A DNA stretch of 55,942 bases from the NCBI GenBank assembly GCA_007693385.1, contig REDR01000052.1:1-55942 (forward strand). The letters run 5' to 3'. The notes beneath the pieces are model-generated. The model was not told the DNA's origin. It saw only the letters and a list, made by a program, of their open reading frames with translations, and searched no databases. Positions within the stretch are counted from its first letter, which is position 1, and each line of letters begins with the position of its first letter. Source of the stretch: Anaerolineaceae bacterium. GTDB lineage: Bacteria; Chloroflexota; Anaerolineae; Aggregatilineales; Phototrophicaceae. Below, piece by piece: positions 17,461 through 23,305 of this stretch. A program made the translations under genes and the position numbers.

Positions 17461-19407
17461 CTATAAGTCACGTAGAAATGTATTATAGATCGGCTGGCGC
17501 GGCGTACCGTCCGCCCGCACAAGGCCGTAACCGTTATCCATGCCATCCGCCCAAGCATACCACACCGCCGCCGCCACCTGTCCCGGGTAACGGCTGTAAA
17601 TGCGGTTCATGAAGCCGGTGATATAGTCGTTCACTTCGGCGGCGAATTGGTCTTGCCCGTTCAGGTCAAGCGTGCCCCATTCGGTGATCCATAGCGGCTT
17701 GTTGGGCAATACCGCCGCCCATCGCTCGATGGACTCCGCGATGGAGCCGAAATTGCTGAATCGTGAATCCTGTGCGCCGCGCCCATACGGATGAAACGCG
17801 ATGCCGTCCGGCAGAACGTCGGCGGGCATGTGGCGCAGTGCTTCGCGCATGTAGGCGGGGCCGTTGTGCGGCCCGCTCGCGTGGCCGCCGGTGATGATCT
17901 TCGCGGCGCTATCGTGGCGACGTATCGCCCGAATCGACTCCGCTAGCAGATGGCCGTAATGCGCGGGTGGCACCGGCACGGCGGCGCGGGCGTGTTCCGG
18001 CGGTGTGTCCTGTTCGTTCCATATCTGATAAGCATAAACCCAGTTGCGCTTGCACATCTGCGCGGCGACTTGCCCCGCCATCTGCGCGAAACGTCCGGTC
18101 AATTGCCGCCATTTAGCGCTGTCCATGCGCTCCCACACATACCCCTGACCTTCGCCGAATGTCTGGTGCGTCAAAGTCAATATCACGCGGATTCCGGCGT
18201 CCGCGTAGGCTTCTATCAGGTCGCAGTAACGATTGAATGCGGCGTTCACGTCGGTATTGCCATAGCATCGCGGATCGTCCGGCGCGTAAGCCGGATTATA
18301 TGATATGTTGTACGTCAGGCGCACCCACCCCAGCGAGCGGACGACATCGGCGGGCGGCGTGCCTAACGGATGATCGATGTCCAGATTAACGCCCGGGATC
18401 GCGATTCCGGCGATGCCCTCCGGCGGGTCTTGTACGCTGACCGCATCCAGATAAGACGCATCGCAGAACGCATCCCAGCGTCCGGCAAAGCGCACCCTCA
18501 GCCATTCGCCGCGCTGTCCGACGCGCTTCAGGATTTCGCCATGCGTCGCCGGTGACTCGATGCGATCCGCCGCGCCGACGACGCCGATGATGTCGCCGTG
18601 CAATCCCCGCGCCGAGCGCACGCGCAACGCCGAGACATTCGGGCGCAAGCGCAGGCCATGACAGTAAATGAACTCGGCGGGGTCTACCACGTTGGGCAAC
18701 TTCAAGCCGTGCATCCCGCCCGCCAATCGTTGCACCACAATTTTGATCTGATCCGCGCTCGCTTTGCCGATAGCCTGCCCACTTTCGACGGACTCGCCGA
18801 CCTGCACCGCAATATCCAGCAATCCGGCGTATGTGGTGCGGAACGCTAGATTATCGACGACGGATGTAATCTGCACATAAGCGCCATAGTTCAGCGCGTC
18901 ATTAGCCGGGACGACCTGCGACACGACGCCATCCGCGCCCGCCTGCACATCTTCGCCGGTGCTAGCGGTGATGTCGATGCCTTCGTGTTGGCGCGTCGGT
19001 GCGTTCAGGAAGGGGTGCAGGATTCGCGCCGGACGCGCCCGCGTCGGCCAGTTCAGCACGAATTGATTGTAGACGTGTTGCGGGGTGTTGCGCGTTTCGC
19101 CGTAGCGATCACCGTCAGCGATGCGCCGCGCCAGTTCCGCCCGCAGAGCGTCCGGCGTCGTCACGCGGATGACATCCACCTTAGCGATCATCGGGAGCGC
19201 CCGCCGGATGTGATAGTGCGCGTCGTCATACGCCCACATGCCGGGCAGTTCGATGACGCTCACCGTCGAGAAGTAGCTGAGGTGCGTGCCGTCTACATCG
19301 CGCACAATAGCCACCTGATCGAACGTCTGGCGATAAGCGTGAACCGCGTCTATCCAGTCGGCGAAGTCTTTGTCGGGTAGGACGAAAGCGTGCGAAATCA
19401 ATGACAT
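17461..19407 (-). CDS. LytM-like / SH3-like / clan GH-A glycoside hydrolase fusion
   Basis: 648 residues with no signal peptide or membrane helix. Residues 1-127 are unassigned. Residues 128-245 resemble an M23/LytM peptidase fold (HEGIDIT, then ASTGEDVQAGADGVVSQV with His141 and Asp145), but the second motif LHFE is absent, so it is probably not catalytic. Residues 258-322 look like a bacterial SH3 domain (LRVRSARG ... GEWLRVRF). Residues 335-648 form a TIM-barrel hydrolase with acid/base Glu465 in IWNEQD and nucleophile Glu576 in WITEWGT, as in GH5/GH39-type families. A cell-wall or exopolysaccharide substrate is plausible given the first two domains. GGGGAG lies 7 bases before the ATG. Absence of an export signal is odd for such a protein. 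Confidence 0.85.
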   Translation of the reverse strand: MSLISHAFVLPDKDFADWIDAVHAYRQTFDQVAIVRDVDGTHLSYFSTVSVIELPGMWAYDDAHYHIRRALPMIAKVDVIRVTTPDALRAELARRIADGDRYGETRNTPQHVYNQFVLNWPTRARPARILHPFLNAPTRQHEGIDITASTGEDVQAGADGVVSQVVPANDALNYGAYVQITSVVDNLAFRTTYAGLLDIAVQVGESVESGQAIGKASADQIKIVVQRLAGGMHGLKLPNVVDPAEFIYCHGLRLRPNVSALRVRSARGLHGDIIGVVGAADRIESPATHGEILKRVGQRGEWLRVRFAGRWDAFCDASYLDAVSVQDPPEGIAGIAIPGVNLDIDHPLGTPPADVVRSLGWVRLTYNISYNPAYAPDDPRCYGNTDVNAAFNRYCDLIEAYADAGIRVILTLTHQTFGEGQGYVWERMDSAKWRQLTGRFAQMAGQVAAQMCKRNWVYAYQIWNEQDTPPEHARAAVPVPPAHYGHLLAESIRAIRRHDSAAKIITGGHASGPHNGPAYMREALRHMPADVLPDGIAFHPYGRGAQDSRFSNFGSIAESIERWAAVLPNKPLWITEWGTLDLNGQDQFAAEVNDYITGFMNRIYSRYPGQVAAAVWYAWADGMDNGYGLVRADGTPRQPIYNTFLRDL

Positions 19408-19554: not shown

Positions 19555-19576
19555 GCGGCGTAGCACGCTACGCCGC
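19555..19576 (-). terminator. Hairpin at the end of the MgtC-family gene
   Basis: GCGGCGTAG / CTACGCCGC, perfect 9-bp stem with a 4-base loop, starting at the stop codon and followed on the minus strand by AATTTT. The inner 18 bases are the same palindrome as the terminator at 3518-3537. Confidence 0.6.
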
Positions 19577-20532
19577 TAATTGGATTTCTCTTTGCTGTCC
19601 TCACTGCTCTTGCTCTGGCGCTTTTTGGGGTAAAGTATGCGCCGGTTGGGGCGGTTATTGACGCTATCATTCAGCGACTTCGAGACGCTGTATTCCGGCT
19701 CGTTGAGGTCTTCCAGCAGATTGTCGTCGTCCAGATTCATCTGCTTGACTTGCTGTTCAGTCGCCTTACGCATCTCTTTGATGGACTGCACCAGATCATC
19801 AGCATCTTCGACTTCTAGCGCCGCCACATCGACGCGCACGATAGATTTGACGGTCAATAGCTGGCGCACCAGACGCGGCACATTCTCCGCACGGATCGGG
19901 CGGGTTAATTCGACGCGCAACACCGCGCTATCGCCCGACTCGGGGAGTACGGTTGCCCGCTTGACCGGCACGCTCAGGCGATCCAGCGCGGCCAACGCCT
20001 TACCCACCGAGCGATTGTCGTCTTTCAGGTGCAATTTCAGGTCGTTCATCGCTTCGCCGCGCCCCAGCCGCACCTCCACCCATTCCAGCGTGGTTAAGGT
20101 GAATAAAATCAGCAAGGTCGCCATCGTCGCCAGCCAGCCCAACCCGACGCCGACGGTGATCCCGATGCCCGCCGATCCCCAGATGCTAGCGGCGGTGGTT
20201 AGCCCGCGAACCGTCGTGCCATGCCGCAAAATCGCGCCCGCACCCAGAAAGCCAATGCCGGAGACGACATAACTCGCCACACGCATCGGATCGCGCATTT
20301 CCGTGTCGAACATCGAATACGCGCCAGCCATCGTCATCAATGACGCGCCCAGCCCAACCAGAATATGCGGGCGAAAGCCGCTAGCACGTTCATGCTCGGA
20401 GCGCTCCAGTCCGATCATCCCGCACAGCACGACGACCAGCAATAATCGCCCCATCAAGACCGGATCGAGCGTGCCGAATACCGGCTCGATGATAACTTCG
20501 ATGTCGCGCAGTAGCGCTATTAAATCGGACAT
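19576..20532 (-). CDS. MgtC/SapB-family membrane protein with C-terminal extension
   Basis: 318 residues. The MgtC core (about 25-150) is clear: RLLLVVVLCGMIGLERSEHERASGFRPHILVGLGASLMTM, then YVVSGIGFLGAGAILRHG and VRGLTTAASIWGSAGIGITVG. Four to five membrane helices precede a soluble domain of about 80 residues (160-245) with ACT-like alternation, and a charged, low-complexity tail ending KSSEDSKEKSN. MgtC proteins in other bacteria are membrane regulators induced by low magnesium; ion transport by the family itself is doubtful. GAGGAA precedes ATG 20532. It lies 17 bases after the ferritin-like gene and is surely co-transcribed with it. The long leader at 20994-21441 probably controls both. 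Confidence 0.9.
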   Translation of the reverse strand: MSDLIALLRDIEVIIEPVFGTLDPVLMGRLLLVVVLCGMIGLERSEHERASGFRPHILVGLGASLMTMAGAYSMFDTEMRDPMRVASYVVSGIGFLGAGAILRHGTTVRGLTTAASIWGSAGIGITVGVGLGWLATMATLLILFTLTTLEWVEVRLGRGEAMNDLKLHLKDDNRSVGKALAALDRLSVPVKRATVLPESGDSAVLRVELTRPIRAENVPRLVRQLLTVKSIVRVDVAALEVEDADDLVQSIKEMRKATEQQVKQMNLDDDNLLEDLNEPEYSVSKSLNDSVNNRPNRRILYPKKRQSKSSEDSKEKSN

Positions 20533-20549: not shown

Positions 20550-20993
20550 TCATGAACGGCGGGCAAATTCGCGCAATAGGTTGGCGGCTTCGCGCTGGCG
20601 ACGCACATCACCGCGCTTGATCCAGCGTAGCCACATCAGCGCATAGCGCGGATTGATCTTGACCAGCGCCGCCCGCCACAACCGCCCCAACGCCGTCCCG
20701 ATCTGTCGGGGTGGCTTGGCGCCTAGCCTCTTGAGTAATTTAGCGCGGCGCTTCAATTGCTCCGCCTCCGCCAATTGCAAACGCCCGTAGAGTTGTTTGC
20801 TGGCGGGCTTGGCGGTGCGCTCTGCTAACTGCTGGTATAAATCAAACGCGATCTGCTCGTGCTGGTAAATACGGCGCATGTGATTCACTATTTTGCGATG
20901 TGCCACCCGCGCTGAAAGGTCGCTGTGCCTCTGGATGTCGAAGGCGGTGATGCCACCGTTGCCGTCGCGTGTCCAGTTGGTTGTTGTCATCAT
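20550..20993 (-). CDS. Ferritin-like (rubrerythrin-type) protein with degenerate metal site
   Basis: 147 residues, basic. Residues 30-92 resemble the rubrerythrin-like helix pair found alone or at the N-terminus of CCC1/VIT-type iron transporters: IYQHEQIAFDLYQQLAE, then LYGRLQLAEAEQLKRRAKLLKRLG. Glu46, Glu76 and Glu78 are present, but the usual ExxH ligand is ExxK (Lys81), and the second half of the four-helix bundle is short and very basic. Iron binding is therefore doubtful. AGGAG sits 9 bases before the first of two ATG codons. It is first in an operon with the MgtC-family gene and is preceded by an attenuator-like leader. Confidence 0.7.
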   Translation of the reverse strand: MMTTTNWTRDGNGGITAFDIQRHSDLSARVAHRKIVNHMRRIYQHEQIAFDLYQQLAERTAKPASKQLYGRLQLAEAEQLKRRAKLLKRLGAKPPRQIGTALGRLWRAALVKINPRYALMWLRWIKRGDVRRQREAANLLREFARRS

Positions 20994-21017
20994 GATGTTT
21001 TTCTCCTAACTGACCGG

Positions 21018-21050
21018 TCATCTGAACTGATTGATGCGATATAGGCTCAT
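21018..21050 (-). CDS. Possible 10-codon upstream ORF
   Basis: ATG at 21050 reads MSLYRINQFR then TGA. It lies 14 to 15 bases after a full AAAGGAGG site, longer than ideal. The same ribosome site is ideally spaced to a TTG at 21057 that opens a 71-codon frame overlapping the ferritin-like gene. Only one, or neither, may be translated. Confidence 0.25.
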   Translation of the reverse strand: MSLYRINQFR

Positions 21051-21215
21051 CACACAACGGGTTTACCTCCTTTCTCGCTTGGCAAGGCGTTTGTTCCGCA
21101 TAAATGAACGCGAAAAGAACGCACGCGACTATGATCTGCGACGGGGCAACGTGACGGCCTCAAATGTCGTCAGCCGTCATCTTGAACATCTTTTGCGGTT
21201 GGGGGGACGTGAATC

Positions 21216-21247
21216 AAAAACCCCGACCTGTGGCAGTGGGTCGGGGT
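21216..21247 (-). terminator. Terminator/attenuator within the leader
   Basis: CCCCGACC / GGTCGGGG, an 8-bp stem with a 10-base loop (21221-21246), followed on the minus strand by TTTTTG. It lies 39 bases after the stop of the 21-codon ORF and about 220 bases before the ferritin-like start. Confidence 0.8.
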
Positions 21248-21284
21248 GCATCTGTCAAAAGGGGATGACGAAAAAATTACGACC

Positions 21285-21350
21285 TCATTCCCAGCGCCGA
21301 ACCACCTGCAAGTTATTCAACTGTTCGTTGCTACTAGAATAGTCGTCCAT
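21285..21350 (-). CDS. Short ORF, 21 residues, candidate leader peptide or small protein
   Basis: ATG at 21350 reads MDDYSSSNEQ, then LNNLQVVRRWE and TGA. It has a weak GAAAG ribosome site 5 bases upstream and sits between a strong promoter and a terminator, so it is the only coding candidate of that short transcript. The peptide is hydrophilic with an acidic start and a VVRRWE end. I do not recognise it. It contains no run of one amino acid typical of classical biosynthetic attenuators. Confidence 0.45.
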   Translation of the reverse strand: MDDYSSSNEQLNNLQVVRRWE

Positions 21351-21377
21351 CGTTTCTTTCGCTTGTAAAAACCATGA

Positions 21378-21400
21378 CGCCATAGAATATTACTATGGCG
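21378..21400 (-). other. Hairpin at the predicted 5' end of the leader RNA
   Basis: CGCCATAG / CTATGGCG, a perfect 8-bp stem with a 7-base AT loop, beginning about 6 bases after the predicted transcription start. It could stabilise the RNA or serve as an operator, being a perfect inverted repeat. Confidence 0.5.
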
Positions 21401-21412
21401 CAACGGGATGTC

Positions 21413-21441
21413 ATGTTAACGCACATCAAACCGAATGTCAA
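21413..21441 (-). promoter_or_regulatory. Strong sigma-70 type promoter of the leader transcript
   Basis: On the minus strand TTGACA (21441-21436), a 17-base spacer and TAACAT (21418-21413). The -35 is consensus and the spacing ideal; the start should be near 21406. It is divergent from ilvD, whose ATG is at 21563. Confidence 0.7.
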
Positions 21442-21562
21442 GCAATTCTGTTCGCCATCGCGCCGCATCACACCGTATTTTGCGCCGCGCTACGTTGCGC
21501 CTTTGTGCATCATGCGGCATACTTAACCGCTAGAATTTAATCGAATATTTAGAGAGAGTATC

Positions 21563-23305
21563 ATGAGCGACTCACCAGAAATCCGTGACGAATTACGCCA
21601 ACTCAACCGCCGTAGCCGAACGCTGGTATCCGGCAATGACCGCGCCGCCGCCCGCGCCATGCTCAAAGCTATCGGCCTGACCGATGACGACCTCGCCAAG
21701 CCGATCATCGCCGTCGCCAACACATGGACGGAAGTCGGCCCGTGTAACTTCCATCTGCGCCGACTAGGGGCGAAGGTCAAAGAAGGCATCCGGCGGGCGG
21801 GCGGCACACCGCTAGAATTCAACACCATCAGCATCAGTGACGGCATCACGATGGGCACGGACGGCATGAAGGCGTCGCTCATCAGCCGCGAATTGATCGC
21901 CGATAGCATCGAGCTAGTCACCCGCGCCAATTATTTCGACGGCGTGATCGCGCTTTCGTCGTGCGATAAGACCATCCCCGGCACCATCATGGCGCTGATC
22001 CGCCTCAATATCCCGTCGCTGATGCTGTACGGCGGCACGATTATGCCCGGCAAGTTCAGCGGCGAATATCCGGTGAAATCCAAGACCGGCGAAGTCGAAC
22101 ACGACAAAGATGTGAACATCGTCCACGTATTCGAGGCCATCGGTGCCCGCGCATCCGGCCAGATCACCGACGAGCAACTCAAAGCGATTGAGGACATCGC
22201 CTGTCCCGGACCCGGCGCCTGTGCCGGACAATTCACCGCCAATACCATGTCCACGATGGCCGCCATTATGGGCATCAGTCCGATGGGCATGAATGACGTG
22301 CCCGCCGTCGCGGAGGAGAAAGACGACATCGCCATGCAAGCCGGCGCGATGGTGCTGGACTTGATCGCCCGCGATATGACGCCGGATAAGATCATCACAC
22401 GGCAGGCGCTAGAGAATGCCGTCGCCGTCGCCACCGGCACCGGCGGTAGCACCAACGCGGTACTGCACACGCTAGCCTTCGCCCGCGAAGCCGGTATCGA
22501 CTTCACCATCGACGACATCGAAGCGATCAGCCGCCGCACGCCGATTCTAGCCGATATGACGCCCACCGGACGCTATAACGCGCTCGATGTCTACAAGGCG
22601 GGCGGCATTCGCCTGTTGGCGCAACGACTGCTAGAAGGTGGCTATTTGCAGGGCGAAGCACTGACCGTCACCGGTAACACGCTCGCACACGAGGCGCAGT
22701 CCGCCACCGAGACGCCCGGCCAGCAGGTCATCCTGCCGCTTTCCGCGCCGATCAAGCCGACCGGTGGCCTTGTCGTATTGAAGGGCAATCTCGCGCCGCG
22801 TGGCGCGGTGGTCAAGCTGAAAGGTGATGAACCGCAATATCACAAAGGCCCGGCGCGTATCTTCAACCGTGAGGAAGAAGCGATGCAGGCGGTGCAATCC
22901 CAGCAGATCAAAGCCGGTGATGTGGTCATTGTGCGTTATGAAGGGCCAATCGGCGGGCCGGGAATGCGCGAGATGCTCAGCGTGACCGCCGCCATCGTCG
23001 GGCAAGGGCTGGGGCAGGATGTGATGTTGCTGACCGATGGCCGCTTCAGTGGTGGCACACGCGGCCTGATGATCGGCCATTGTGCGCCGGAAGCGATGGT
23101 CGGCGGCCCCATCGGGCTATTGCGTGAAGGCGACATCATCGAAGTGAACGTCGCGGAGCGTAGCCTCAATGTGCTGATTAGCGATGACGAGATGGCACGC
23201 CGCCGCGCCGATTGGTCGCCGCCCGCGCCGAACTATACATCCGGCGTGATGGCGAAATATGCGCGTCTGGCGCGTCAAGCTGACGACGGCGCGACAACCG
23301 TTTAG
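21563..23305 (+). CDS. ilvD: Dihydroxy-acid dehydratase
   Basis: 580 residues, near the family length. It converts 2,3-dihydroxy-isovalerate and 2,3-dihydroxy-3-methylvalerate to the 2-oxo acids in valine, isoleucine, leucine and pantothenate synthesis. Cluster and active-site segments are in order: [81 protein letters not shown], and the C-terminal [26 protein letters not shown] with the catalytic serine. The three cysteines of the iron-sulfur ligands can be located in PCN, SSCDK and GACAG. AGAGAGAG precedes the ATG. No other branched-chain genes are adjacent. A 7-bp hairpin (23322-23346, GAGGCCG / CGGCCTC) follows without a T run. Confidence 0.98.

Follow-up and report, generated by a model that had tools for sequence, protein, structure and literature searches.

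The locus described here raises the question of what stands between a promoter and the operon downstream of it. In the window, by which we mean the whole 55,942-nucleotide stretch of Anaerolineaceae bacterium DNA that was analyzed, the minus strand from 21441 to 20994 leads from a promoter through a 5' hairpin, a 21-codon open reading frame (ORF) and an intrinsic terminator to an operon of two genes. A preliminary description had offered two readings: a control leader unrelated to known ones and similarly built, or a stand-alone small-peptide gene. From sequence comparison, we consider it very probable that the segment is a conserved attenuation-type leader of the ferritin-like/mgtC operon. 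We further propose, with a probability of about 0.45, that it may be a ribosome-mediated attenuator of a Mg2+ operon, working like mgtL and mgtQ without kinship to them. The features are as follows:

21413..21441, minus strand: promoter TTGACA-17-TAACAT (TTGACA at 21441-21436, 17-nt spacer, TAACAT at 21418-21413), with 10 of 12 consensus matches
21377..21401, minus strand: 5' hairpin CGCCATAG/CTATGGCG near the predicted transcript start, a perfect 8 bp, or 9 pairs with one G-T
21285..21350, minus strand: 21-codon leader ORF encoding MDDYSSSNEQLNNLQVVRRWE, its start aligning with the leaders of G006, L092, L093 and L097
21280..21284, minus strand: GGTCG right after the stop codon, a candidate for element 1, potentially pairing with the terminator 5' arm and positioned like element 1 of the relatives
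21216..21247, minus strand: intrinsic terminator ACCCCGACC/GGTCGGGGT, a 9-bp stem at 21247-21220 with a 10-nt loop, and T's to 21216
21152..21179, minus strand: further inverted repeat TGACGGCT/GGCCGTCA, from the helix listing
21018..21073, minus strand: AAAGGAGG (21073-21066) with a 10-codon ORF (21050-21018), of doubtful membership
20550..20993, minus strand: first operon gene, for a small all-helical, possibly ferritin-like protein (37% identity to the G006 protein, 30% to that of G310)
19576..20532, minus strand: second operon gene, for an MgtC-family protein (PF02308, E 2.4e-33; 69% identity to G006, 66% to G310)

The promoter, the perfect 8-bp hairpin, the ORF, the terminator (with 9 pairs) and the further inverted repeat were all present as the preliminary description had claimed. 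AAAGGAGG and the 10-codon ORF are also in the sequence, but as part of the device they are not supported, the ATG lying 15 nt from AAAGGAGG. At the same place (window 21073-20842, minus strand), a near-perfect AAAGGAGG precedes a 71-codon ORF that starts at TTG 21057 and overlaps the start of the ferritin-like gene out of frame; in G006, too, AAAGGAGG occurs with an overlapping ORF, whose frame relative to the gene is the same (L004:1626-1548, minus strand), and the peptides are dissimilar. The gene ilvD begins at 21563 in the opposite direction.

The leader folds more stably than shuffled sequence, with z -3.4 for 21407-21216 (0 of 200 shuffles as good) and z -2.4 for the whole leader, 21407-20994 (1 of 100). 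The 5' hairpin (-13.5 kcal/mol, z -4.9, 0/200 shuffles) occurs at one place only in the window genome and so is not a genomic repeat; G006 has a hairpin at the corresponding place (L004:5014-4976, z -5.9). No strong Shine-Dalgarno sequence lies upstream of the 21-codon ORF. The terminator (-17.0 kcal/mol, z -3.7, 1/200 shuffles) has a 5' arm that starts 37 nt past the ORF stop. Between 17000 and 25000 there were 4 promoter-like sites, against a shuffle mean of 4.5, and 7 terminator-like sites, against 7.3; since neither count exceeded the shuffles, single motifs are weak proof. The terminator scan limited loops to 8 nt, and the actual terminator is absent from its list because of the 10-nt loop. 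All 4 promoter-like sites overlap one another at 21441-21386. Between 21216 and 20994, where a separate promoter would have spoken against a common leader, no site of the scanned kind was seen at the scan threshold.

The MgtC assignment of the second gene was borne out by Pfam. The ferritin-like character of the first protein is only plausible: the predicted structure was all-helical (mean pLDDT 79) and most of the 50 Foldseek matches listed were ferritin-like or Dps proteins, but there was no Pfam match, and Foldseek found nothing at E ≤ 0.001, with a best E of 0.072. Strong matches to this protein occurred in 2 of 61 relatives, own genome counted. At the order level 4 of 154 genomes had a match, two of them strong, and among 396 genomes of the class there were 26 with a match at E ≤ 0.001, strong only in G000, G006 and G310. 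In the same 396 genomes, MgtC gave ten matches above 300 bits, the next being at 107 bits. Both G006 and G310 have the ferritin-like gene followed by mgtC; in G006, genes for an ABC permease and an ATPase with an AAA-associated C-terminal domain (L004:1670-4842, minus strand) lie between leader and ferritin-like gene. A contig scan found nothing with the ferritin-like protein as query and 13 loci with MgtC; one of these, L102 from Patescibacteria (48% over 129 residues), was left out. The neighborhoods of ilvD in relatives contained no leader, and in the closest ilvD relative, G003, the operon is absent at that place. Elsewhere in the window (17464-19407, minus strand), a single protein combines M23 peptidase and cellulase-type glycosidase domains.

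We compared what precedes mgtC at 21 loci of the MgtC subgroup: the window, L090-L101 and L133-L140. G006, which belongs to the window's family, and L090 are the same contig. A full short-ORF leader was found at 5 of these loci (window, L090/G006, L091, L092 and L093, the last three from further genomes of Chloroflexota) and a partial one at 3. Among the latter, L095 is truncated by the contig end, with the first two letters missing; L096 is classed as attenuator-like only, because its ORF is unlike the rest; and L097 has a similar ORF and no promoter of the TTGACA-17 kind, and precedes a DUF1003 gene. The arrangement at L097 (1945-2874), a similar short ORF before the DUF1003 gene and then mgtC, hints at a place for DUF1003 in Mg2+ physiology. 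At L096 (2641-2975), attenuator-like three-element complementarity accompanies a 25-codon ORF that overlaps the end of the upstream gene and encodes a peptide unlike the others.

At four other loci an M-box match exceeds the Rfam threshold: L094/G310 (130.7 bits), L137/G175 (135.7), L139/G276 (136.3) and L140/G258 (131.8; its mgtC is a fragment match). A fifth, L133/G303, begins at a contig end within an apparent M-box, judged by sequence. The remaining 8 of the 21 (L098-L101, L134-L136 and L138) had neither. In one Anaerolineae family, f11, M-box riboswitches precede genes of the mgtC subgroup at L137, L139, L140 and L012. The M-box of G310 is followed by a terminator hairpin; G310 has both operon genes of the window, with the M-box in place of the short-ORF leader. 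A tree built from 20 MgtC proteins placed those of G175, G303, G276 and G335 in one clade (support 100/100); the other clade, with most of its forks unresolved, contained the leader-bearing proteins and that of G310. The M-box model (RF00380) had no match in the window, where only a tRNA exceeded the Rfam threshold, and none in 20950-21562 at E ≤ 10; with stricter filters it matched 0 of 101 window relatives, own genome counted, and it was absent from the window-type leaders of relatives. Sub-threshold Rfam matches in the window and L092 were judged to be chance. Because related mgtC loci bear the M-box Mg2+ riboswitch instead, Mg2+ is the likely signal for the window leader.

The leaders L091, L092 and L093 have a 170-nt region in common, from which a covariance model, R1, was built. 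At E ≤ 0.001, R1 matched 3 of the 396 class genomes: G006 (51.9 bits, E 2.3e-10), upstream of genes for the ABC permease, ABC ATPase, ferritin-like protein and MgtC; G358, from a different order (44.5 bits, E 2.8e-8), before two tandem genes with MgtE domains; and G283 (28.1 bits), within a 740-codon ORF and judged to be chance, as were model matches at G310:C194 and in G064. Among 48 genomes of its order, G358 alone stood out. On the window leader R1 scored 8.6 bits (E 1.3), and it did not find this leader when run against the entire window genome. A second model, R2, was made from five leaders with the window left out. At E ≤ 10 in 17 sources (127 kb) it gave four matches, every one in leader regions: L095 (12.7 bits), window 21356-21293 (11.8 bits, E 0.11), L096 (11.6 bits) and window 21246-21211 (6.8 bits, E 2.3). 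Against the entire window genome, R2 gave nothing at E ≤ 5. It had matches at E 0.01-5 in 10 of 11 genomes, among which a promoter-plus-ORF pattern, itself derived from the known leaders, recovered known leaders only.

The preliminary description had proposed a direct search for the leader in relatives as a check. As DNA the leader matched only itself in 61 genomes. Its part around the ORF start (21378-21318) outscored all 300 shuffles in alignments with each of four leaders, those of G006, L092, L093 and L097; 231 of 300 shuffles were as good for L091 and 141 of 300 for G358. TTGACA-17-TANNNT occurs in 6 of 7 leaders (window, G006, G358, L091, L092 and L093; not found in L097), and in the same six the terminator lies 31-41 nt past the stop codon, the distance being 33 nt in L095 and 23 nt in L096. 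The window thus shows the family traits: this promoter, an ORF beginning with MD, a terminator at that distance and a Mg2+ gene downstream. Promoter, ORF, terminator, spacing and the company of Mg2+ genes are conserved, and the layout recurs before mgtC or mgtE in G006, L091, L092, L093 and G358; this supports the predicted control leader, and the exchange for an M-box supports control by Mg2+. The family is sparsely distributed, and a PHROGs search returned nothing. As far as sequence goes, the original observation was confirmed, and what decided was conservation across leaders. Because the same layout precedes magnesium genes in distant relatives, the device may well be a Mg2+ switch that uses the ribosome.

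Alongside the window peptide, the complete ORFs encode MDDHPSKRHTAADNANIVI (G006), MDTDSCSSKRHTAANRAHNPKLIWSLHSQ (G358, with a GTG start), MDSASKQHTARSLFTAQI (L091), MDGYSSQQHTAAHTVHS (L092), MDSSSSKQRAARSSFNS (L093) and MKDSPSSNEHKPPARSGGLVVAIASPL (L097). Six of the seven begin with MD, and L097 has the aspartate at position 3. Serines cluster at codons 3-7, as SSS in the window, SSSS in L093, SS in L092 and SPSS in L097. Translation of the ORF is supported by three observations: over the 7 codons of the core SKRHTAA, G006 and G358 differ by 3 synonymous and 0 amino-acid changes; the five leaders differ at 14, 16 and 23 of 70 sites in codon positions 1, 2 and 3, a modest third-position excess; and the distance from start to CTAGT (15, 18 or 24 nt) is in every case divisible by three.

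Energies computed with RNAduplex over whole leaders had no discriminating power, and nine leaders were instead tested for contiguous helices against shuffles; the p values are optimistic, as the regions were chosen once all helices had been listed. Pairing of ORF codons with RNA past the terminator had p ≤ 0.05 in 5 of 9 leaders (G006 and L091.001, L097.003, L092.009, L096.039; L093.068, window.35, G358.44, L095.68). For the ORF end with the terminator 5' arm this held in 6 of 9 (L091.001, L093.002, L092.004, L096.005, L095.006, G006.014; window.51, G358.72, L097.97). Pooled over the nine leaders, p was 3e-7 and 7e-8, respectively, and 6e-6 and 4e-5 when only one of L091-L093 was kept. The competing pairings are therefore seen in relatives and not in the window, where the best long-range helix had 6 bp and GGTCG makes 5 pairs only with the terminator arm. 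A covariance analysis had been suggested: when five relatives' leaders were aligned to fit the structure, 96.4% of cells were paired and 8 of 25 pairs had changed on both sides (0/500 shuffles), against 28-40% paired in slid versions of the alignment.

In equilibrium models with a ribosome footprint, L091 and L093 behaved as switches, with terminator probabilities of 0.02 and 0.01 in free RNA and of 0.98 and 1.00 with the ribosome at the stop codon. G006, G358, L092 and L096 kept the terminator in all modeled ribosome states, and L095 ran contrary to an attenuator, with a terminator probability of 0.0 with the ribosome at the stop. The window terminator stayed at 0.94-0.97 in every state, and with the helix tests this gives no support for an alternative hairpin in the window itself. 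Equilibrium folding takes no account of the order in which RNA is made and therefore neither proves nor excludes a kinetic switch. ACCTCGCC copies complementary to the mgtC ribosome site were observed at L091:858-1106 and L092:2474-2693; since they can pair with this site, GGCGAGGT, control of translation may be added in L091-L093.

We picture the attenuator as follows. Transcription would start just past 21413, with the terminator at 21247-21216 as the only strong stop ahead of the operon, and a ribosome would translate the 21-codon ORF. In ample Mg2+, it would get to the stop codon and block pairing of the ORF end, and the terminator would form. In scarce Mg2+, it would pause or drop off in the first codons, a start rich in Asp2-Asp3, leaving the ORF end free for the terminator 5' arm or the ORF codons for downstream RNA; the terminator would be prevented, and the polymerase would read through into the ferritin-like and mgtC genes. 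Completion of the ORF would in this way favor termination, and early ribosome loss read-through. That early pausing or abortion does the sensing is a tentative element of the scheme; the prevalence of Asp2 fits the logic of early Asp/Glu codons in mgtL and mgtQ. It seems rather doubtful that the conserved nascent peptide, MD..SS(K/N)(R/Q/E)(H)TAA, is itself a ribosomal Mg2+ sensor, evolved in Chloroflexota independently of the enterobacterial leaders, evolutionarily interchangeable with the M-box and serving mgtC, mgtE and ABC-transporter operons.

Other explanations fit parts of these data. The window copy might be a decayed member of the family that keeps promoter, ORF and terminator and has lost switching, so that the terminator merely dampens expression. 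The non-significant pairings, the terminator predicted in all ribosome states and the low R2 scores agree with this; against it, the window has kept the ORF start, the 17-nt promoter spacing, the 37-nt stop-to-terminator spacing and a strong T-tailed terminator, and we regard decay as unlikely. Direct binding of Mg2+ or another ligand by a riboswitch, with an incidental ORF, would account for the long-range helix and covariation across leaders and for the M-box at the same place in related loci. It is improbable in view of the synonymous third-position changes in the G006/G358 core, the codon-position differences among the five leaders and the start-to-CTAGT distances, and the long helix was not found in the window.

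The serine clusters would suit an attenuator that senses another cue, either charged serine tRNA or a translation-inhibiting drug. Downstream, however, are mgtC, mgtE and ABC-transporter genes, with no serine or resistance genes seen, and this reading, which also has the M-box swap against it, is one to which we give little credence. Finally, promoter and terminator delimit a complete unit of ~190 nt with strong folding, which could be a separate small RNA or small-peptide gene, the operon having its own promoter. The unit recurs, however, before different Mg2+ genes in G006, G358 and L091-L093. The ORF accompanies Mg2+ genes, and the promoter scan showed no further site before the operon; the stand-alone gene is disfavored on these grounds, and we consider it very improbable.

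If the ribosome-mediated attenuator is real, Mg2+ sensing by a tiny ORF would have arisen more than once, in Chloroflexota by an unrelated design at loci that carry the M-box in kin, and the natural variants would show which codons and residues matter. In open-licence articles (subscription journals lay largely outside this coverage), we found no such leader described in Chloroflexota. The known ribosome-based Mg2+ leaders compared here are enterobacterial. In mgtL, completed translation is tied to termination and early ribosome loss to read-through; MgtL has an EPDP motif, and its terminator is Rho-dependent (PMC11282234). The 8-codon mgtQ lies between genes and acts on mgtB translation, a tiny ORF with Asp2 and Glu5 overlapped by alternative stem-loops, 1:2/3:4 versus 2:3 (PMC8092293). 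In both, early Asp/Glu codons destabilize the ribosome (PMC11282234, PMC8092293).

Compared with a trp-type attenuator, control codons do not match, since the ORF has a serine cluster and the genes downstream are ferritin-like and mgtC. As for mutually exclusive antiterminator and terminator, 6 of 9 leaders show significant pairing of the ORF end with the terminator arm, the window not being among them, and a thermodynamic switch was modeled only in L091 and L093. The M-box (ykoK, RF00380) occupies the same place before related mgtC operons (G310, G175, G276 and G258), although the window and its short-ORF relatives lack an M-box match. In Mycobacterium, an M-box controls a conserved small upstream ORF, which also joins a Mg2+ leader to a small ORF, but with the M-box that the window lacks (PMC12810186). 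Like mgtL of mgtA, the window has a short ORF with early acidic residues before a Mg2+ gene; unlike it, the terminator is intrinsic, the peptide contains neither EPDP nor proline, with no detectable kinship to MgtL or mgtQ peptides, and the phylum is another. With mgtQ, from the mgtC-mgtB interval of Salmonella, and with mgtM and mgtP of the mgtC leader, the family shares a tiny ORF, an early acidic residue and, in relatives, putative alternative stem-loops; unlike mgtQ, the device of the window sits at the 5' end and closes with a terminator.
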